This document shows positions 12,310 to 39,762 of a stretch of 39,762 nt of DNA, piece by piece; position 1 is the first letter of the stretch; the number at the start of each line of letters is the position of its first letter. The position numbers were made by a program, and so were the translations under genes. The notes below the pieces were generated by a model. It was not told the DNA's origin and made no database searches. It was given only the letters and a program-made list of their open reading frames with translations. The DNA comes from an uncultured Flammeovirgaceae bacterium (lineage in GTDB: Bacteria > Bacteroidota > Bacteroidia > Cytophagales > MED-G16), in the NCBI GenBank assembly GCA_913052485.1, contig CAJXDN010000012.1, forward strand, positions 1 to 39,762. The letters are read 5' to 3'.

Positions 12310-12880
12310 ATTTATTTAAGTATGACACTAATTTTCTTACTGCTATAGATCTATGTGAAATTAAATTTTTTTCATCAACTGTCATCTCAGAAAATGTTTT
12401 TTTTGATCCTTCAGGAATAAATATTGGATCATATCCAAATCCACCTTCACCTACCTTTTTCTCTGAAATTTTTCCAGAAATTGATCCCTCAAAAAAATGT
12501 TTAGAGTTGTTAATTATCAGACAAATTACTGTTCTGAAAGATGCCGATCTGTTAGAATTGGATTGTAATTTTTTTAAAACCAAATTAATATTTTCCTCGG
12601 AATTGCATTTATCTCCAGCAAATCTTGCAGATTTTACTCCTGGTAATCCATCAAGAGCATCGATAAAAAGACCCGTATCATCAGAAAAACAATTTATATT
12701 AAATTTCTTACTGATAAAATTTGATTTTAATAGTGCATTTCCCTCTACTGTATCCTCAGTTTCAGGAATATCATCATAAAAATTTAAATCTGGTAGAGAT
12801 ATAATATCATATGAGGTAAGTAGCTGCTGAATCTCTATTAATTTATTTTTATTTCCAGTAACGAAACATATTTTATTCAC
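12302..12880 (-). CDS. rdgB: dITP/XTP pyrophosphatase, RdgB/HAM1 family
   Basis: This house-cleaning enzyme hydrolyses deaminated purine triphosphates (dITP, ITP, XTP) to monophosphates so they are not put into DNA or RNA. All family motifs are present in 192 residues: TGNKNK at 8-13, DDTGLFIDALDGLPGVKSARFAG with the acidic metal ligands, GFGYDPIFIPEG, and the C-terminal SHRSIAVRKL. The start codon is GTG (12880-12878), within a 4-base GTGA overlap with the stop of the upstream FKBP gene, and its own end overlaps udk by 8 bp. Both overlaps point to translational coupling. Confidence 0.95.
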   Translation of the reverse strand: MNKICFVTGNKNKLIEIQQLLTSYDIISLPDLNFYDDIPETEDTVEGNALLKSNFISKKFNINCFSDDTGLFIDALDGLPGVKSARFAGDKCNSEENINLVLKKLQSNSNRSASFRTVICLIINNSKHFFEGSISGKISEKKVGEGGFGYDPIFIPEGSKKTFSEMTVDEKNLISHRSIAVRKLVSYLNKYG

Positions 12881-13521
12881 TTTCTGATTTTAATGAGAGA
12901 AATATCAAATATTAAGATTGAACTTTCAGGTATTACTGGAGTATTTGAATTACCTGACTTACCATAAGCATTACCTGAAGGCATTAATATCTTAATTGAC
13001 CCACCCTGACTAATCTTACTCAAGGACTTACCTAGGCTACTCTTAAAATCTGATAACTGGGCTAGGTATCCATGATCTGAAACAACAGGGAAAAAACTGC
13101 CTACTCCATTATAGGTATATACTATAGGAGAATAGTATTTAGACTCGTCATAATACCCGATGTTTTCAGCTAGGAGTTTAATATTTGTATCAAATATTAC
13201 TAAGTCAACAGAGTCATTGTTGAAAAAGATTGAATCATTTGTATAATAGCCGGCAATATTAATGCTAACAAGATCACCAGTTTCAGGAAACAAAACATTT
13301 TCACCAGAGTCAATTACTGAGTAATAGACTCCTGATCTAGTTGTATCTACATAATTAATTCCCTTTGAGTCAAGATATGAAAATATTAATGATATATCTG
13401 CATCTCTCTGATTTAAGGAATCAATTTCATCCTGAATAGGATCAAAGACGTCAATATATATTTCTTCAGTGTTACAGGAGATAAATAGTATTGATGCCGC
13501 TATGATTGAAATTATTCTCAT
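12877..13521 (-). CDS. Divergent FKBP-like lipoprotein, probably not catalytic
   Basis: This 214-residue protein starts with a lipoprotein signal, ILFISC with the modified Cys near residue 16, so it is probably membrane anchored in the periplasm. The C-terminal part is FKBP-like: GGSIKILMPSGNAYG and VIPESSILIFDISLIKI match the last strands of the fold. The middle is not normal. The stretch that should read like Y-x-G-x-L-x-x-G-x-x-F-D is IAGYYTNDSIFFNND, and the conserved VIxGW helix start is replaced by a longer segment with FKSSLGKSLSKISQGG. Several pocket residues (the Asp after Phe, and Trp) are therefore missing. A chaperone or binding role is more plausible than proline isomerase activity. 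It directly abuts the next FKBP gene and overlaps rdgB. GldI-like function is possible but not shown. Confidence 0.75.
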   Translation of the reverse strand: MRIISIIAASILFISCNTEEIYIDVFDPIQDEIDSLNQRDADISLIFSYLDSKGINYVDTTRSGVYYSVIDSGENVLFPETGDLVSINIAGYYTNDSIFFNNDSVDLVIFDTNIKLLAENIGYYDESKYYSPIVYTYNGVGSFFPVVSDHGYLAQLSDFKSSLGKSLSKISQGGSIKILMPSGNAYGKSGNSNTPVIPESSILIFDISLIKIRK

Positions 13522-14001
13522 TTATTTAATTTCTAATAATTTAAGCCTAAAAATAAGTACGGAGTTCTCTGGAATCGAGCTAGTTGAGGTATTACCATAC
13601 GCCAAACCAGATGGAATTATTAATATTATTGAACCATTTTCATCGATAAGGGGTAGACCTAGTTCCCATCCCTGAATTACTTCATTTGATCCTAATATAA
13701 ACTCAAAAGGTTGATTCGTATAACTTCTATCAAATTCTAAACCATTAAGTAGCATACCTACATATTCTACACCGAGTGTGTCACCTGTAGTTGGATAGAT
13801 TGAATTTCCCTCCTCTAAAATTTTAAAATGAAGACCATTATCAAGTGACTGAAAGCCATCTATATTATTTTCAATGATATATCCTTTAATTCTTTCGACG
13901 TCAAGATTTAATTGCTCCTGCTTAGTTCTTGTGACTACGAGATTCTCACCTGTACAAGAAAGAAATAAGATGAAGATTAAAAAGTAACCAAAAACTTTCA
14001 T
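13522..14001 (-). CDS. FKBP-type peptidyl-prolyl isomerase lipoprotein
   Basis: This 159-residue lipoprotein has a signal ending ILFLSC and a single FKBP domain over about residues 60-159. Pocket residues are largely intact: VEYVGMLLNGLEFDRSY contains the Tyr, Phe and Asp; FEFILGSNEVIQGWELGLPLI has the Val-Ile-x-Gly-Trp motif; LIIPSGLAYGN and IPENSVLIFRLKLLEI complete the domain. It should isomerise Xaa-Pro bonds in proteins in the periplasm. It is the middle of three consecutive FKBP genes, 6 bp downstream of the first and directly adjacent to the third, within an apparent operon with a DHH phosphoesterase. GldI, a gliding-motility FKBP lipoprotein of flavobacteria, belongs to this class, but I cannot equate it with this gene. 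Confidence 0.88.
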   Translation of the reverse strand: MKVFGYFLIFILFLSCTGENLVVTRTKQEQLNLDVERIKGYIIENNIDGFQSLDNGLHFKILEEGNSIYPTTGDTLGVEYVGMLLNGLEFDRSYTNQPFEFILGSNEVIQGWELGLPLIDENGSIILIIPSGLAYGNTSTSSIPENSVLIFRLKLLEIK

Positions 14002-14007
14002 AGGTTA

Positions 14008-14883
14008 CTAATAATCTAAAACCTGAATCTCAAAAATTAAAACTGCATTAGGGGGAATAACACCACCTGCACCTGATGCGCCATAACCCAAAGTACTTGG
14101 TATATATAGGGTACCTTCTGATCCTTTGTTAAAGTATGTTATGCCTTCATCCCATCCTCTTATTACCATACCTTGACCCAGCTGAAAGGAGAAAGGTTGG
14201 TTTCTATCTAGAGAAGAATCAAATTTTTCTCCATTTAATAGCATCCCAGTATAATGAACAGTTACGTTGTCACCTGGAGCTGCATTTTCACCACTGCCCA
14301 TTTTAGTAATTACGTACCTGAGTCCACTATCTGCACTTTTTGCAGTTATGTTATTTTCTTTTAAGTAGTTATCAATCAATTCTAAATCGATGGATAGCTG
14401 GTCGTTACTTTGTTGTTCCATTTCTTGTTGCATTTTTTCATATTGAATTCTTTGAAAATCTTCAAACTCATTTTGTGACATAACGTCTTGTATACCACAA
14501 TAAAAACTAATCATTTTATTTTTTACTGAATCAGGAACCTCAACTGATTGAGGAGCATTTTTAAAAAACTGTTCTGTTGTTAATTGGAAAAAAACACTAT
14601 CACCCTTAACTAGGTTGTCAATTACGTTGTAAATAATTCCACTACTTTCCCAGGAAGAATCTTTCTGTAATACAACTGGATCATTACCAACTTTGTTCAA
14701 GAGTTCATTCCCGTCATAGTCAAAATATTGAAGGTTAATCATTACTATCTGGCCATCTTCTATTTCTTGTCCACTACCATTTTTAAAATATTTTAATTCA
14801 ACACCATTATCTAAAACTTTTTCTCTGTCAACACACGAAAATATAGTAAAAAATAAAATTGTTATATAATAGATTTTTCTCAT
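14008..14883 (-). CDS. Two-domain FKBP-type peptidyl-prolyl isomerase lipoprotein
   Basis: This 291-residue lipoprotein has the signal FTIFSC (Cys near 17). Residues about 25-130 form a first, incomplete FKBP-like domain (DGQIVMINLQYFDYDGNELLN, then LVKGDSVFFQLTTEQFF). A Gln/Glu-rich helical linker follows near 140-165. A complete FKBP domain covers about 195-291: VTVHYTGMLLNGEKFDSSLDR, FSFQLGQGMVIRGWDEGI, LYIPSTLGYGASG and IPPNAVLIFEIQVLDY carry all the standard pocket residues, so this domain should be active. It is first of three FKBP genes and begins 3 bp after the DHH gene. The two-domain layout with a helical linker resembles FkpA-like periplasmic chaperones, but that is an inference. 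Confidence 0.9.
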   Translation of the reverse strand: MRKIYYITILFFTIFSCVDREKVLDNGVELKYFKNGSGQEIEDGQIVMINLQYFDYDGNELLNKVGNDPVVLQKDSSWESSGIIYNVIDNLVKGDSVFFQLTTEQFFKNAPQSVEVPDSVKNKMISFYCGIQDVMSQNEFEDFQRIQYEKMQQEMEQQSNDQLSIDLELIDNYLKENNITAKSADSGLRYVITKMGSGENAAPGDNVTVHYTGMLLNGEKFDSSLDRNQPFSFQLGQGMVIRGWDEGITYFNKGSEGTLYIPSTLGYGASGAGGVIPPNAVLIFEIQVLDY

Positions 14884-27608: not shown

Positions 27609-27815
27609 TGAAATTTATTTTGCAATATAAATTGTAATTCCGAAATTTTACAGAGTTTCAAGAGAAAAATTGAAATAATTTTTTAATAAAACTTAATCTA
27701 AAATAACCTCTGAAATGTTTGTTTAAAAAATAAAATTTTGCTCTTTAAGGTCAAAAAAATGATTTTATTAAGATTAAAACAAAAAAAGTTTAAAAAATCA
27801 CAATGGAAAAATAAG

Positions 27816-27837
27816 ATAAGGCAAATAAATACCTTAT
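27816..27837 (-). terminator. Probable intrinsic terminator after sucB
   Basis: Read on the minus strand, ATAAGG (27837-27832) and CCTTAT (27821-27816) form a 6 bp stem with a 10 nt loop, followed by a T-rich tail (CTTATTTTTCC). It lies 13 bp after the sucB stop. The stem is short and AT-rich, so support is moderate. Confidence 0.45.
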
Positions 27838-27849
27838 AAAATTTAGTAT

Positions 27850-31961: not shown

Positions 31962-32585
31962 ATGGCAGTTAAAATAAGATTATCAAGAAGAGGAAGAAAG
32001 AAACTAGCAATTTACGATATAGTAGTTGCAGACGCTAGATCACCAAGAGATGGAAGAATTATTGAAAAATTAGGTAACTACAATCCTAACTCAAATCCTG
32101 CTATAATTAATTTAGACGTTGATAAGGCCCTAGATTGGGTTATGAAAGGAGCTCAGCCTAGTCAAACAGCTAGAGCTATTTTATCCTACAAAGGTGTAAT
32201 GATGAAAAAGCATCTACAGATAGGTGTTAACAAAGGTGCACTAAAACAAGATGTTGCAGATAAAAAATTTGAGACATGGCTTAAAGAAAAAGAATCAAAA
32301 ATCAACAAAAAAATTGATTCAATTAATGAAGCATCTGAAAAAGATAAAACAAAAAGATTATCAGAAGAAAAGGCATATAATAAGAAAAGAGAGGATGATA
32401 TCAAGAAAAGATTAGAAGAAGTTCTTGCTGCTGAAAAAGCAAAAGAAGAAGCTCCTGCTGCTGAAGAAGCAAAAGAAGAAGCTCCTGCTGTTGAAGAAGC
32501 AAAAGAAGAAGCTCCTGCTGCTGAAGAAGCAAAAGAAGAAGCTCCTGCTGCTGAAGAAGCAAAAGAAGAAGACTCTAAAAAATAA
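31962..32585 (+). CDS. rpsP: 30S ribosomal protein S16 with long repeat-bearing C-terminal tail
   Basis: S16 binds 16S rRNA in the body of the small subunit and is needed early in its assembly. The core is residues 1 to about 80: MAVKIRLSRRGRKKLAIYDIVVAD, RSPRDGRIIEKLGNYNP, and QPSQTARAILSYKGVMMK. E. coli S16 is 82 residues; here the protein is 207. After the core comes a charged, probably helical region, then 4.7 copies of a 10-residue Ala/Glu/Lys/Pro repeat (EAPAAEEAKE), ending in KK. Such extensions are seen in other Bacteroidota. Their role is not known; the tail would project from the ribosome surface. It is first in the rpsP-rimM-trmD operon. Confidence 0.95.
   Translation: MAVKIRLSRRGRKKLAIYDIVVADARSPRDGRIIEKLGNYNPNSNPAIINLDVDKALDWVMKGAQPSQTARAILSYKGVMMKKHLQIGVNKGALKQDVADKKFETWLKEKESKINKKIDSINEASEKDKTKRLSEEKAYNKKREDDIKKRLEEVLAAEKAKEEAPAAEEAKEEAPAVEEAKEEAPAAEEAKEEAPAAEEAKEEDSKK
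32431..32571 (+). repeat. Tandem 30-bp repeat in the rpsP 3' end (4.7 copies)
   Basis: Units start at 32431, 32461, 32491, 32521 and 32551 and read like CTGAAGAAGCAAAAGAAGAA followed by GCTCCTGCTG. Copies are nearly identical; the first has ctgaaaaagc, the third ttgaagaagc. The 30-bp period keeps the frame, so copy number changes would add or remove 10 residues of the S16 tail without breaking the gene. Confidence 0.95.
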
Positions 32586-33091: not shown

Positions 33092-33765
33092 ATTATATTG
33101 ATATAATTACCTGTCAACCGGAACTGTTGGACAGCCCCTTAAATAATAGTATTTTGAAGATCGCTCAAGATAAAAAACTAGTTAACATAAAGATTCATAA
33201 TCTCAGAGATTTTTCCGATAATAAGCACAAAAAAGTAGATGATTATGCTTTTGGTGGTGGCGGTGGTATGGTGTTAAAGATAGAACCAATTTTTAACTGT
33301 ATTGAGTCTATAAAAAAAGAAAAAAAAGTTGATGAAATTATTTATATGTCCCCTGATGGAGAAAAACTGAGTCAAAAAACAAGCAATTCTCTATCATTAA
33401 AAAAGAATATTATAATTTTATGCGGTCACTATAAAGGGGTAGATGAAAGAGTAAGAGAACATTTAATTACGAAAGAGATAAGCATTGGAGATTATGTGTT
33501 AACAGGAGGAGAGTTACCTGCAGTAATATTAATTGATTCGATAATAAGGTTAATACCTGGAGTAGTTTCTAATGAACCTGCTGCTTTATCTGATTCCTTT
33601 CAAGATAGTTTACTAGGGTATCCAAATTACACAAGACCCTCCGAATTTAATAAATGGAAAGTACCTAAAATTTTACTTTCTGGGCATCAGAAAGAAATTG
33701 AAGAATGGAGACTCAAAAAATCTTATCAAAAAACTAAACAGAAAAGACCTGACCTTCTAAATTAG
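33088..33765 (+). CDS. trmD: tRNA (guanine-N1-)-methyltransferase TrmD
   Basis: TrmD uses SAM to methylate N1 of G37 next to the anticodon in tRNAs reading CNN codons, which prevents +1 frameshifts. The 225-residue protein shows DIITCQPELLDSPLNNSI, the HNLRDFSDNKHKKVDDYAFGGGGGMVLK segment, CGHYKGVDERVREH, the trefoil-knot SAM site GDYVLTGGELPAVILIDSIIRLIPGV, and the C-terminal SLLGYPNYTRPSEF and LSGHQKEIEEWR with the conserved His and Gln. Normal length. It starts in an ATGA overlap with rimM and is last in the operon; rplS, which often follows, is absent here. Confidence 0.96.
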   Translation: MNYIDIITCQPELLDSPLNNSILKIAQDKKLVNIKIHNLRDFSDNKHKKVDDYAFGGGGGMVLKIEPIFNCIESIKKEKKVDEIIYMSPDGEKLSQKTSNSLSLKKNIIILCGHYKGVDERVREHLITKEISIGDYVLTGGELPAVILIDSIIRLIPGVVSNEPAALSDSFQDSLLGYPNYTRPSEFNKWKVPKILLSGHQKEIEEWRLKKSYQKTKQKRPDLLN

Positions 33766-33863
33766 AGTGAGATTAAAAATAGTGCAGAGGATAAAAATAA
33801 CCACATAGATACTCTTATAAGGTATTTTCTTTTATATGACTTTTTTAGTGATGGAATATACAT
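33762..33863 (-). CDS. Possible 33-aa membrane micro-protein
   Basis: A short frame starts at ATG 33863-33861 and ends at TAA 33764-33762, overlapping the trmD stop by 4 bp. The peptide has a basic start (SLKKSYKRKY) followed by about 16 hydrophobic residues (VSMWLFLSSALFLISL), as in a single-pass micro-protein. It lies 13 bp downstream of a three-copy TTAACA repeat array. I do not recognise it. The array is so near the ATG that a promoter would have to overlap the start, which argues against it, so it may be chance. Confidence 0.25.
   Translation of the reverse strand: MYIPSLKKSYKRKYLIRVSMWLFLSSALFLISL
33809..33836 (+). terminator. Weak terminator-like hairpin after trmD
   Basis: ATAC at 33809-33812, a central CTTATAAG, and GTAT at 33822-33825 can form a short hairpin with one bulge, followed by TTTCTTTTAT. 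It lies 44 bp after the trmD stop. The stem is weak and overlaps the possible micro-ORF. Confidence 0.3.
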
Positions 33864-33876
33864 AACGTTGTATTAA

Positions 33877-33904
33877 TGTTAACTCAATGTTAAGAAATTG
33901 TTAA
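33877..33904 (-). promoter_or_regulatory. Three-copy TTAACA-N5 direct repeat, Pho-box-like operator
   Basis: TGTTAA occurs on + at 33877-33882, 33888-33893 and 33899-33904, an exact 11-bp period; on - this reads TTAACA-N5-TTAACA-N5-TTAACA. It resembles PhoP sites of Bacillus subtilis (TTAACA-N5 repeats) and, in the period, the E. coli Pho box. The regulator here is inferred. It lies between the ends of trmD and DUF2490. Confidence 0.5.
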
Positions 33905-33951
33905 CAAATATCCAAATGATCTATGGATTTAGAATTTAAAAGCGTTAATTA

Positions 33952-34593
33952 TCAGATCTTTATACTTAAAGCAAGTACAAAAATATTTTTTTGAGACCAC
34001 GAAACAGTTTCACCAGAAACCTTCCTATTAGATTCCAAAATAAAACTAGGTTTAAAAACAAAAGGTGTTTTTTTGAATTTGATGTTTATACCAAGGATAA
34101 TTCTATTTCTTGCAAACTGACTCTCAGTTAAAAAAATTTCATTTTGAATGAATGGATTATAATTATCAAATAATTTTAATGCATAAGAATACCTTAATCT
34201 ATATCTAAATACATTATTACTCAATTCTTTAACTCTAAACTCATTTCTTAACCTAATTTTCATATTGTCATTTAGCTTGTAGGTAATATCAAGATGTGGT
34301 CTTATCTCTGAAACTCTTCCTTCTTTCTTTAAATTATATATTTCCCTATAATATAAACCCACTTTAAATTTTTTAAGTTTATATGCTACACCCAGATCAA
34401 TCCTTCCTTGTTTAGATTCTTTTAAGGAGTTATCATATTTATTTCTATATTCAATTTTGACTTCAAAATCATCAAATATATCACCCTGAACATCAATAGT
34501 TGGCCAGGTTTGGTAAATAGACTGGGAATTTACAATTTGATTTGATAATAATAAAATTATAAAACATAAAACAATTCTTAAATAAATTTTCAT
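33952..34593 (-). CDS. DUF2490 family outer-membrane beta-barrel protein
   Basis: This 213-residue protein starts with a signal peptide (IVLCFIILLLSNQIVNS, cleaved before QSIYQTWP). The mature part is made of short alternating strands rich in Arg, Lys and Tyr, with typical DUF2490 segments: a start near QTWPTIDVQGDIFDDFEVKIEYRNKY, RIDLGVAYKLKKFKVGLYYRE, RNEFRVKELSNNVFRYRLRYSY, and a final strand ending FVLALSIKI. A small outer-membrane barrel is therefore likely. The function of this family is unknown. It is single, lying between dapF on the same strand and trmD convergent, and has a Pho-box-like repeat upstream, so phosphate control is a possibility. Confidence 0.85.
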   Translation of the reverse strand: MKIYLRIVLCFIILLLSNQIVNSQSIYQTWPTIDVQGDIFDDFEVKIEYRNKYDNSLKESKQGRIDLGVAYKLKKFKVGLYYREIYNLKKEGRVSEIRPHLDITYKLNDNMKIRLRNEFRVKELSNNVFRYRLRYSYALKLFDNYNPFIQNEIFLTESQFARNRIILGINIKFKKTPFVFKPSFILESNRKVSGETVSWSQKNIFVLALSIKI

Positions 34594-34605
34594 AGGACAA
34601 TTTTA

Positions 34606-34642
34606 TAAAACTAGTTTTTAGAAAATGTTAATCTGGTGTTAA
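34606..34642 (-). promoter_or_regulatory. Pho-box-like repeat plus -7-like box upstream of DUF2490
   Basis: TTAACA (34642-34637) and TTAACA (34631-34626) are 11 bp apart on the minus strand; a weaker TAAAAA (34620-34615) continues the same period. TAGTTTTA (34613-34606), one mismatch from TAnnTTTG, follows the second copy after 12 nt and lies 12 nt before the ATG at 34593. A repeat array in the -33 position is the layout expected of an activator-dependent promoter. Confidence 0.5.
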
Positions 34643-34671
34643 GAAATCATTATAATAATTTGGAAACTATA

Positions 34672-35436
34672 TCAAAGGTGCATTTTACCTTGATATTCTA
34701 GTAAAGGATTACCTATCAGATATATATTTGAAAATTCATTTGATCTGTTTTTCTGAAAAGTTACTTTTAACTCACCACCTTTAGTCATTACTTTTTCAGC
34801 ATAATATTTATTTTTTAAACTAAACGCAATTACTGATGCTACGGCACCTGTACCACAACTTAAAGTCTCTCTCTCTACTCCTTTTTCAAAAGTCCTAACA
34901 TATATAGATCCATTTCCTAGATCAGAAACTATATTAACATTACAATCCATTTGCTCATAAAAAGGAAGATTTCTTATTTCAGTTGCCTCTTTTTTAATAT
35001 CAAAATTATTGGCATCATCAACAAACTTTACATGATGTGGCGCACCTGTATTAATAAAGTAATCTTTTCCAAAATATTTATAAGAGGTGATATCTTGCAT
35101 TTTTAACTTAATTTCTGAAGTTATTATAGCTGAATATTTTTGGTTTTGACAAGAAAATAAGGCTTCATCATTGATTTTATTATTTGATTTTAAGTAATGA
35201 AGCGAGCAAAGACTACCATTACCACAAAAACTTTCAGATCCATCAGGGTTATAGAAAGACAACTCAAAATCATTTTCATTTGATTTAGAAATAAATAATA
35301 TTCCATCTGATTTTCTAACAACTGGATCCTTAATTAGTTGTTCAATTAAATTATAATAATTTGTGTTTTGAGAGATTAAATCTATCAGAATGAAATTATT
35401 ACCTGATGACTGATACTTATAAAATTGAATTTGCAT
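34672..35436 (-). CDS. dapF: Diaminopimelate epimerase
   Basis: DapF converts LL-diaminopimelate to the meso form, needed for peptidoglycan cross-links and lysine. From the ATG at 35436 it has 254 residues, somewhat shorter than E. coli (274). It begins MQIQFYKYQSSGNNFILIDL, the family start. The two catalytic cysteines are C71, in FCGNGSLC, and C194, in LSCGTGAVAS. The substrate-binding NPDGSE, NTGAPHHVKF and RTFEKGVERET also match. The more distant TTG start at 35451 lies inside the terminator of rplS and is unlikely. It follows rplS on the same strand, but the terminator between suggests limited read-through. Confidence 0.95.
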   Translation of the reverse strand: MQIQFYKYQSSGNNFILIDLISQNTNYYNLIEQLIKDPVVRKSDGILFISKSNENDFELSFYNPDGSESFCGNGSLCSLHYLKSNNKINDEALFSCQNQKYSAIITSEIKLKMQDITSYKYFGKDYFINTGAPHHVKFVDDANNFDIKKEATEIRNLPFYEQMDCNVNIVSDLGNGSIYVRTFEKGVERETLSCGTGAVASVIAFSLKNKYYAEKVMTKGGELKVTFQKNRSNEFSNIYLIGNPLLEYQGKMHL

Positions 35437-35846: not shown

Positions 35847-35963
35847 GTCTATTTTTAATTTTTTTTAATTTTCTGTAGATAAATTAATATCATAATAAGA
35901 GATTCGTATTTTTATTTTTTATAATTCTAATAAAAGAATTAAATAAATCGGATTTGTATTGAT

Positions 35964-35971
35964 TAAATTTG
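35964..35971 (+). promoter_or_regulatory. Promoter -7 element for secA (TAAATTTG)
   Basis: TAAATTTG matches TAnnTTTG and ends 10 nt before the secA ATG at 35982. The implied leader is only about 6 nt. No good TTG is seen 18-20 nt upstream. Confidence 0.45.
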
Positions 35972-35981
35972 TGTTAATACT

Positions 35982-38900
35982 ATGTTTGATTTCATTAAAA
36001 AAATTTTGGGTTCAAAATCTGATAAAGATCTAAAGGATATATATCCCTTAATTGACAAAATTAATATAGAATTTAATAAACTTAAAACCTTATCAGATGA
36101 TGAGCTTAGAAATAAAACTTTTGAGTTTAAAGAAGTAGTTCAAAATAATCTTAAAAAGTCTGAACAGGAAATTAATAATTTAAGAGAAGAATATAAAAAA
36201 TCAGAAGGGTCATTATCTGAAAAAGAAAATCTTTTAAACGAAATCGATTCCATAAAAGAATCACAAAAAGAAATCATTGAAAAAACTCTTGAAAAACTTT
36301 TACCAGAAGCATTTGCAGTTGTAAAGGAAACAGCAAGAAGATTTACTGAGAATGAAAGTTTGGAGGTGACTGCTACAGACTTCGATAGAGAGATAGCAAG
36401 TAAAAAAGATAATGTTGAAGTTGATGGTTCTAGAGCTATTTGGTATAATGAGTGGGTTGCTGCTGGTGTTGATATTAAGTGGAATATGATTCACTATGAT
36501 GTTCAATTAATCGGAGGAGTTGTTTTACATCAAGGAAAAATTTCTGAAATGGCTACTGGTGAAGGAAAAACATTGGTTGCTACTCTACCTGCTTATTTAA
36601 ATGCGCTTTCAAAAAGAGGCGTTCATATAGTAACTGTAAATGACTATTTAGCTAAAAGGGACGCTGAATGGAATGCTCCAATATTTGAGTTTCACGGACT
36701 AAAAGTTGACTGTATAGATAAACATGAATCTAATTCAAAAGAGAGGATAAATGCTTACAATGCAGATATTACATATGGAACTAATAATGAATTTGGATTT
36801 GATTATTTAAGAGATAATATGGTTAGAGAGAAGGGTGAATTAGTTCAAAGAGAACATAACTTTGCAATGGTTGACGAAGTAGACTCAGTCCTGATCGATG
36901 AAGCTAGAACACCACTTATTATTTCTGGCCCTGTACCAAGGGGTGACGATCATGAGTTTTTTGAATTAAAGCCTAGAGTCCAGAAATTATTTGATCTACA
37001 AAAAAAACTAGTAACCCAATATCTCGCCGAAGCAAAAAAATTAATATCAGAGGGTAAAGAAGATGAGGGTGGACTGTCATTATTTAGAGCACACAGAGGA
37101 TTACCAAAATATAAGCCTTTAATAAAATATCTAAGTGAAATTGGTACTAAGGCCATTATGCAAAAAACTGAAAACTACTATTTACAAGATAATTCTAAGC
37201 TAATGCCTGAAGCTGACGAGCCATTGTATTTTACTATTGAAGAAAAAAGTAATAGCATTCAACTAACTGAAAAAGGGACCGACAATATAACTAGCTCAGG
37301 AGATGATAATAATTTCTTCATAGTTCCAGACATAGGAGTAGATATTAATAAATTAGAAAATTCAGGAAAACCAGTAGATGAGATAGCAAAAGAAAAAGAA
37401 AAAATAATTCAAGACTACAGTGTAAAAACCAAAAGAATACATACAATAAATCAACTACTTAAAGCATACTCAATGTTTGAGAAAGATCAAGAGTATGTTG
37501 TAATTGATTCTAAAGTTAAAATTGTTGATGAGCAAACTGGTAGAATAATGGAGGGAAGAAGATACTCTGATGGTCTTCATCAGGCAATAGAGGCAAAAGA
37601 AAATGTGAAAATTGAAGACGCCTCTCAAACATACGCAACTATAACCTTACAAAATTATTTTAGAATGTATAATAAACTTTCTGGAATGACCGGTACTGCT
37701 GAAACAGAAGCTGGAGAATTTTGGGAAATTTATAAACTTGATTGTGTTGTTATTCCGACTAATAGAGATATCTCAAGGTCTGATATGGAGGATAAAGTTT
37801 ATAAAACTTTAAAAGGAAAGTTCAATGCAGTTATTGATGAAATAGAAGAACTTAGAAACAATGGGAGACCAATCTTAGTGGGAACAACCTCAGTTGAAAT
37901 TTCTGAATTATTGAGTAGAATGCTGAATATGAAAAAAATTAAGCATCAAGTTCTAAATGCGAAGCAACATGCAAAAGAAGCTGACATAGTAGCTGAAGCC
38001 GGGAAGCCGGGAACTGTAACAATAGCAACTAATATGGCAGGGAGAGGGACTGATATAAAATTAACTGAAGAATCAAGAGCAAGTGGAGGACTTGCAATCG
38101 TTGGAACAGAGAGACATGAGTCCAGAAGAGTTGATAGACAATTAAGAGGTAGATCTGGTAGACAGGGTGATGTTGGATCATCTCAGTTCTTTGTTTCATT
38201 AGAAGATAATTTAATGAGACTTTTTGGATCGGACAGAATGATAAAAGTGATGGACAGAATGAATATGGATGAAGATGAGGTTATACAACACAGTATGATT
38301 ACTAAGTCAATCGAGAGAGCCCAAAAGAAAGTTGAAGAGAATAATTTTGCTATCAGAAAAAGGTTGTTAGAGTACGACAATGTAATGAACTCTCAAAGGG
38401 AAGTAATTTACAAAAAAAGAAGAAATGCCATATATGGAGAAAGACTTGATGTAGACATATTAAACATGCTTTATGATACATGTGAGGATATTGTATTGAC
38501 AACTAAAAATTCTGAAAGTTATGATGATTTTAGACTCAATGTTTTAACAGTCCTTGGTTTAGATTATAATTTATCTGCCGAAGAATTTTTAAAATTTGAT
38601 TCAAATATTATCACTGAAAAGTTATATGAGAAAGTAGTAGAAAACTATGAGAAGAAAAATGCTAGTATAGTCTCTGCTTCTATGCCAATAATTAAAAAAA
38701 TAAAAAAAGAGAGAGGTACAGTTGTCAAGGACGTACTTATTCCATTTACTGATGGAACCAAACAAATAGGTGTGTCAATTAATTTGGAAGATATCATAGA
38801 AGATGAAGGTAAAAGCATATTAGTAGAAATGCAAAAAATTGTTTCTCTAGGAATGATTGACTTTAATTGGAAAGAACATCTAAGGGAGATGGATGATCTA

Positions 38901-39311: not shown

Positions 39312-39762
39312 TATATATAAGCTTATTTTATGTTTTAATCTCTTGTTCATCAAAAAGAATAGTATCTAATATAAATAATGAGAGGGATTACTTTGAAGAT
39401 TTATCCTATATAAGATCTCAAGAAGAAAGAAAAATTATTGATACAACCAATTCCAAATTTATAAGTGGTCCATATAAAAATGATATTAGCTACGAGCTCG
39501 ATAGTATCATTAAAATTATAAAAGATGAAAATAAATCAGATCGGTTTTTAGAAGGGTATACGATTCAGTTATATTTAGGTGGTGATAGAATTAAAGCTGA
39601 AGAGATTGAGGAAAAAATAACTGAAATTGACAGTCTTATATATAAAAATACAGTTTTTACTCAACCCAACTATCGAGTTAAAATTGGCCAATATATTGAT
39701 AGATTCCAGGTTTCAGAGGAATATCAGAAGTTTAAAAAACTATTTCCAAATGCAATAATTAT
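39290..39762 (+). CDS. SPOR-like domain lipoprotein, partial (C-terminus beyond right edge)
   Basis: A frame opens at ATG 39290, overlapping the secA 3' end by 22 bases, and runs to the window edge without a stop (157 residues). The start is a lipoprotein signal: basic MYNFRR, hydrophobic LVYISLFYVLISC with the modified Cys near residue 19, followed by SSKR. From about residue 90 it resembles a SPOR-type repeat: GYTIQLYLGGDRIKAEEIEEKI, and then the second part YRVKIGQYIDRFQVSEEYQKFKKLFPNAII. SPOR domains bind peptidoglycan with bare glycan strands. In Bacteroidota such lipoproteins are common; its specific role is unknown. The overlap with secA suggests co-transcription. Confidence 0.75.
   Translation, partial: MYNFRRLVYISLFYVLISCSSKRIVSNINNERDYFEDLSYIRSQEERKIIDTTNSKFISGPYKNDISYELDSIIKIIKDENKSDRFLEGYTIQLYLGGDRIKAEEIEEKITEIDSLIYKNTVFTQPNYRVKIGQYIDRFQVSEEYQKFKKLFPNAII

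Follow-up and report, generated by a model that had tools for sequence, protein, structure and literature searches.

The window analysed here, a stretch of 39,762 nucleotides, comes from a marine lineage of the Cytophagales that is on record under the name uncultured Marinoscillum, and not from a flavobacterium as a preliminary description of this DNA had supposed. It contains a gene for a DUF2490 outer-membrane protein, accompanied by repeats of the hexamer TTAACA, and the last nucleotides of the window overlap a second contig, C9, that carries a further gene preceded by the same repeat. The features that concern us are as follows.

Window 34626..34642, minus strand: Pho-box-like pair TTAACACCAGATTAACA, an exact match to TTAACA-N5-TTAACA, 5' of the DUF2490 gene.
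Window 34598..34605, minus strand: -7 element TAAAATTG, with one mismatch to TAnnTTTG, exactly 20 nt below the box.
Window 33952..34593, minus strand: DUF2490 gene (PF10677), encoding a 213-aa outer-membrane barrel, a putative porin of TCDB class 1.B.81.
Window 33877..33904, minus strand: triple box TTAACAATTTCTTAACATTGAGTTAACA, three perfect units, pointing away from the DUF2490 gene.
Window 33762..33863, minus strand: unannotated ORF of 33 aa, MYIPSLKKSYKRKYLIRVSMWLFLSSALFLISL, starting 13 nt after the triple box and tail-to-tail with trmD.
Window 39708..39762, no strand: window-C9 junction, a 55-nt exact overlap between the end of the window and the start of C9.
C9:73-1038 (window ~39780-40745), minus strand, next contig: PiT-like gene, encoding a 321-aa membrane protein.
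C9:1130-1146 (window ~40837-40853): box TTAACATTCTTTTAACA, the fourth exact pair, upstream of the PiT-like gene.

Two other stretches of the window attracted attention in passing. A ribosomal protein S16 with a long C-terminal tail of EEAPAAEEAK-type repeats is encoded at 31962-32585, and three lipoproteins with C-termini of peptidyl-prolyl isomerase (FKBP) type, judged by eye, follow one another on the minus strand at 12877-14883.

Upstream of the DUF2490 gene, the minus-strand TTAACA units at 34637-34642 and 34626-34631 define an 11-bp period, and a degenerate third unit, CTAAAA, follows at 34615-34620 on the same strand. The preliminary description had placed these units correctly, and had correctly measured 12 nt from the second unit to TAGTTTTA and 32 nt from it to the ATG (34593). 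Its choice of TAGTTTTA as the -7 element has to be abandoned, as 12 nt is not the conserved distance. We assign this role to TAAAATTG because aligned orthologous promoters keep TANAATTG exactly 20 nt below the box. In the alignment with the promoters of genomes G006 and G013, the latter from another genus, ATTTCTTAAC is followed by a unit 11 bp on, 20 nt, TANAATTG and the ATG; the window's box aligns with TTAACCCTAATTTAACA in G013 and with a degenerate TTAACATATCAGTAATA in G006, and the spacing to TANAATTG is the same in all three orthologous promoters (three species, two genera). Transcription of the DUF2490 gene should begin at or next to its ATG, which predicts a leaderless or nearly leaderless mRNA. 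Only the DUF2490 gene, of all sites in the window, has the composite of a box and TAnnTTTG (≤1 mismatch) at 20-22 nt, and none of 60 shuffles produced this composite with an exact box.

Compared with the other boxes, the DUF2490 box is a weak one: with a matrix trained on PiT-like promoters it scores 11.9, which is what the best sites in shuffled windows reach on average. Conservation of the repeat among orthologues, which the preliminary description had proposed as a check, extends to G013 and, in degenerate form, to G006; it does not extend to the congeneric genomes G003, G005, G008 and G010, whose DUF2490 genes are without the box, and the box is likewise absent in L083. Among the DUF2490 promoters of other families, 1 of 29 carries a box even when 2 mismatches are allowed, which is no enrichment. 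These promoters and the box-less orthologues rule out the box as a general feature of DUF2490 genes.

Within the 1.19-Mb genome, which is 78% complete and was examined by pattern and by family only, exact pairs number four, against one for the reversed pattern; three lie in the window and one at the start of C9. Because the end of the window overlaps the start of C9 by 55 nt, all four can be placed inside ~7 kb. A SPOR reading frame runs on across the junction, and genome G002 has the same gene order. Since the count is four against one for the reversed pattern, a lone exact pair in 1.2 Mb is not significant, and significance comes from position and conservation. Pairs with up to two mismatches number 28 in the window, compared with 14.7 ± 3.6 in shuffled sequence, and none of 100 shuffles reaches 28. 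Weak box-like repeats, with two mismatches per pair, also lie in the rplS/secA divergent region (35961-35988). An Rfam search over window positions 33700-34720 returned no match, and therefore no known RNA lies there.

The gene behind the fourth exact pair encodes a protein present in 14 of the 15 genomes of the window's family. Searches of these 15 genomes with PF01384 (PHO4) and PF12849 (PstS) gave no match (PF01384 at E 0.001), and a PDB sequence search with the profile of the PiT-like protein found no PiT match; its identity came from fold comparison instead. Queried with the predicted structure (pLDDT 78), Foldseek placed chains A and B of TmPiT (6L85) first, with probability 1.00 and E values of 0.0066 and 0.013, the next matches lying at 0.13-0.15, and the chains of this sodium-dependent phosphate transporter are the only confident structural matches of the model. 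In the wider PiT-like family PF01384 does find its target, with matches in 12 of 15 proteins (best E 1.6e-6). Judged by its modelled fold, the partner gene is a divergent PiT-type phosphate transporter, the only phosphate transporter that PF01384, PF12849 and fold together recognise in these incomplete family genomes.

PiT-like promoters carry the box well beyond the window, and it stands before this transporter gene in most of 80 relatives. Within the window's family these promoters show either the box itself or a form of it with two mismatches. Outside the family, among 69 promoters of Cytophagales and Balneolales, 19 contain an exact pair and 45 a pair with at most one mismatch, at -100..-40. 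The corresponding numbers for control promoters, each searched over a wider stretch of 300 nt, are 0 of 894 and 18 of 894 (2%), and only 0.04% of 60-bp segments from other parts of these loci, read on one strand, contain a pair with one mismatch or fewer. The commonest forms of the box at PiT-like promoters, TTAACAATTTCTTAACA and TTAACAATTTGTTAACA, include the sequence found at window positions 33888-33904. A perfect TAnnTTTG lies 20-22 nt after the second unit in 36 of 46 PiT-like promoters, and so constant a spacing is what one would expect if an activator stands in for the -33 element. The earlier proposal of a PhoB/OmpR-type tandem box in activator position is thereby strengthened by the constant -7 spacing and by the Cytophagales promoters, as far as comparison of sequences can carry it.

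In two relatives, G012 and G014, the DUF2490 gene lies directly 3' of the PiT-like gene. Two different arrangements, a box of its own and a position adjoining the PiT-like gene, tie DUF2490 to the regulon, and a functional link is therefore supported. In both relatives (loci L004 and L003) the DUF2490 frame overlaps the end of the PiT-like gene and has no ATG, GTG or TTG before the signal peptide; translation there might begin at an ATT or be coupled.

These observations bear on an alternative in which two of the sites, the triple box and the one at the PiT-like gene, are genuine PHO boxes and the DUF2490 pair is a chance occurrence in AT-rich DNA, the gene being transcribed by readthrough from rplS-dapF or from a plain promoter. 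The reversed pattern does yield roughly one exact pair per genome, the matrix score is low, several orthologues have no box, and rplS-dapF lies upstream on the same strand, with dapF 78 nt from the DUF2490 gene. A chance pair, however, would not be expected to belong to a composite site whose -7 element three species from two genera keep at a distance of exactly 20 nt and which shuffling does not reproduce, to fall inside the 7 kb that hold every other exact box, or to precede a gene that two relatives keep in an operon with the box-controlled PiT-like gene. We consider this alternative unlikely, and membership of DUF2490 in a phosphate regulon likely.

The triple box is the top-scoring site of the window, reaching 26.9 of a maximum of 28.7 with a matrix built solely from other families' PiT-like promoters. 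It had been described as a recurrence of the motif downstream of the DUF2490 gene; the motif is indeed there, in three perfect units, yet it is not an element of the DUF2490 gene and fronts the separate 33-aa ORF. No clear -7 element was recognised for this second promoter in the window. The product of this ORF has a cationic N-terminus followed by a single hydrophobic segment. Its orthologues in G006 and G013, the latter from another genus, each stand behind a triple box, and of the first ten codons compared with G006, five are identical, five are synonymous (third positions) and none is replaced.

Triples nearly identical to the window's occur in most congeners. In most other congeners, however, the triple box lies between carB and odhB, where it precedes the gene for an 86-aa secreted protein, and both this ORF and its box are absent from the corresponding gap in the window (27609-27849). 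At seven carB-odhB loci the secreted protein begins MKYILMLILFSFISLDSFAKEKKKG, belongs to an unknown family and has 86 aa (82 in L022), and the box before it is a triple or near-triple TTAACA in most congeners. The carB-odhB locus of G012 (L058) has a triple box and then a 35-codon ORF starting MIIPSIERHENI, similar to the start of the window's MYIPSLKKSY ORF. These comparisons suggest that box and short gene have changed places in the genome. A survey of 148 genomes of the order for the triple box was set aside, the matches being too few and showing no clear theme.

That phosphate is the signal is suggested by the genes which exact boxes front in four larger genomes of the Cytophagales (Algoriphagus kandeliae, A. 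iocasae, Belliella pelovolcani and Marivirga arenosa). Their exact pairs total 15, against about five for the reversed pattern. Three lie between a PiT-like gene and a divergent Na/Pi cotransporter, two are upstream of phosphate-selective porins (Algoriphagus, Belliella), one is upstream of a PhoB-like regulator (Belliella), one is near a PhoD phosphatase and at least three are upstream of TonB-receptor-like genes; the remaining boxes look like chance. In Belliella, Algoriphagus and Marivirga (L246, L253 and L247) a reverse-oriented exact box lies ~100-135 bp upstream of a TonB-receptor-like OMP_b-brl_4 gene, which makes this gene a candidate phosphate-regulated receptor. PstS-type promoters of the order carry weak boxes (≤2 mismatches) in 10 of 30 cases, against 6.6% of controls. 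PhoX promoters of the class have a box in 2 of 28 cases, with no enrichment, which rules out a class-wide PhoX rule.

The comparative evidence identifies the repeat as a putative PHO box, with binding of a regulator predicted, and comparative support for its phosphate nature is strong. The earlier suggestion of phosphate as the likely signal agrees with the many Cytophagales in which the box precedes genes for phosphate uptake and one for a PhoB-like regulator. The literature searched yielded no PHO-box consensus for Cytophagales.

The genome has two OmpR-family response regulators. One is RprY-like and lies on C9, and the other, L015, is PhoB-like and lies on another contig (G000:C2) in a DUF3108-regulator-kinase cluster. 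Against the NCBIfam PhoB cut-offs the response regulator scores 211.7 of 270 and 205.3 of 296, both below. The box-fronted regulator of Belliella (L256) is 60% identical to L015, with the same DUF3108-regulator-kinase order, and 39% identical to the RprY-like regulator. The promoter of L015 in this genome contains four degenerate TTAAC-like units exactly 11 bp apart. Binding by another regulator, such as the RprY-like one, would make phosphate genes only part of a general envelope stress response; the presence of two OmpR-family candidates, with the RprY-like gene on the same contig as the PiT-like gene, gives this idea some footing. The genes behind exact boxes in the four genomes are, however, mostly concerned with phosphate uptake, and it is an L015-type regulator and not RprY that the Belliella box fronts, just as it is the L015 promoter that has the four phased units. 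Control by an RprY-type regulator is thus improbable, and a PhoB-type regulator, most likely L015, is the better candidate. A study of Bacteroides fragilis found that PhoB binds the pst promoter there and that the phosphate permease gene BF3715 depends on PhoB (PMC3547664).

Closer inspection of the DUF2490 protein is consistent with a role in transport. Its match to PF10677 scores 63.5 bits (gathering cut-off 29.8), and its AlphaFold model (pLDDT 85) has a signal helix at residues 2-21 and 11 long strands. The best Foldseek match of this model is NanC, with probability 1.00, and porins are among the matches. When residues were assigned to the two faces of the barrel by strand parity in six sequences, the polar face was found to have 15 Lys/Arg and 6 Asp/Glu columns conserved in all six, and the apolar face none. 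A lumen of this basic character would fit a channel for anions. Most likely, DUF2490 admits phosphate through the outer membrane and acts in concert with the PiT-like symporter.

DUF2490 is classed among the putative porins and no function has been established for the family (PMC4827864), and membrane lipids of marine bacteria shift in phosphate starvation (PMC4796936). Both facts leave room for a phosphate-regulated protein that forms no phosphate pore and instead stabilises or remodels the outer membrane at low phosphate. The conserved basic polar face, the NanC-like fold and the direct linkage to a phosphate symporter all favour transport over this membrane role, to which we give a small share of the probability.

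We regard it as probable that DUF2490 is a phosphate-regulated anion channel that works with the PiT-like transporter under the control of a PhoB-type PHO box. From the computed box, its conservation and geometry, the co-regulated gene classes and the barrel model, we infer regulator binding, activation at low phosphate and phosphate permeation. The tandem 11-bp site would be bound by a PhoB-type response regulator, most likely L015; bound under phosphate limitation, the regulator would replace the -33 element, with the -7 element ~20 nt downstream. The regulon would be very small, comprising the DUF2490 channel, the divergent PiT-family inner-membrane symporter and the 33-aa membrane protein, to which the gene of the regulator should probably be added. 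DUF2490, as a monomeric barrel with a basic lumen, would pass phosphate (or other phosphorus anions) over the outer membrane and so supply the PiT-like symporter, a part played elsewhere by porins of the OprP type. More tentatively, the DUF2490 channel, the divergent PiT and the new 33-aa protein might form a minimal phosphate regulon with a PhoB-type box in a streamlined marine lineage whose 15 genomes gave no PF12849 or PF01384 match, and which would sense phosphate independently of the Pst transporter.

DUF2490 is a widespread outer-membrane family of the Bacteroidota, to which the phosphate box and the symporter operon give a testable role. TTAACA-N5-TTAACA with a fixed -7 spacing would serve as a marker for phosphate-regulon genes of Cytophagales, including the hypothetical 33-aa and 86-aa proteins.

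The PHO boxes of E. coli, Streptomyces coelicolor and Bacillus subtilis are likewise 11-bp tandem direct repeats in activator position at phosphate transport genes, and in Belliella, as there, the box also fronts the regulator. In B. subtilis the box of PhoP likewise resembles TTAACA. The unit here is TTAACA, whereas CTGTCAT or GTTCACC is found in known PHO boxes (PMC4415409), and here a rigid 20-22 nt separates the box from the TAnnTTTG -7 element of Bacteroidota. With the B. fragilis PhoB regulon, as far as the available text describes it (PMC3547664), the present system shares a PhoB-type regulator over phosphate transport, including the permease BF3715; a pst operon is part of that regulon, whereas the window's family gives no PF12849 match. 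The PiT-like partner has both signature repeats of PiT proteins (PF01384) and TmPiT as its top Foldseek match, and PF01384 is detected in most wider members, whereas Pfam does not detect those of the window's own family. The NanC/KdgM anion channels are the closest structural match to the DUF2490 model, for which a basic lumen is predicted and a weak PF06178 match falls below cut-off, but the identity is 10%. Known NanC/KdgM members carry acidic sugars. OprO/OprP porins (PF07396) are also outer-membrane barrels; compared with them DUF2490 is a shorter, unrelated barrel of ~190 mature residues, and the same box stands before their gene in Algoriphagus and Belliella.
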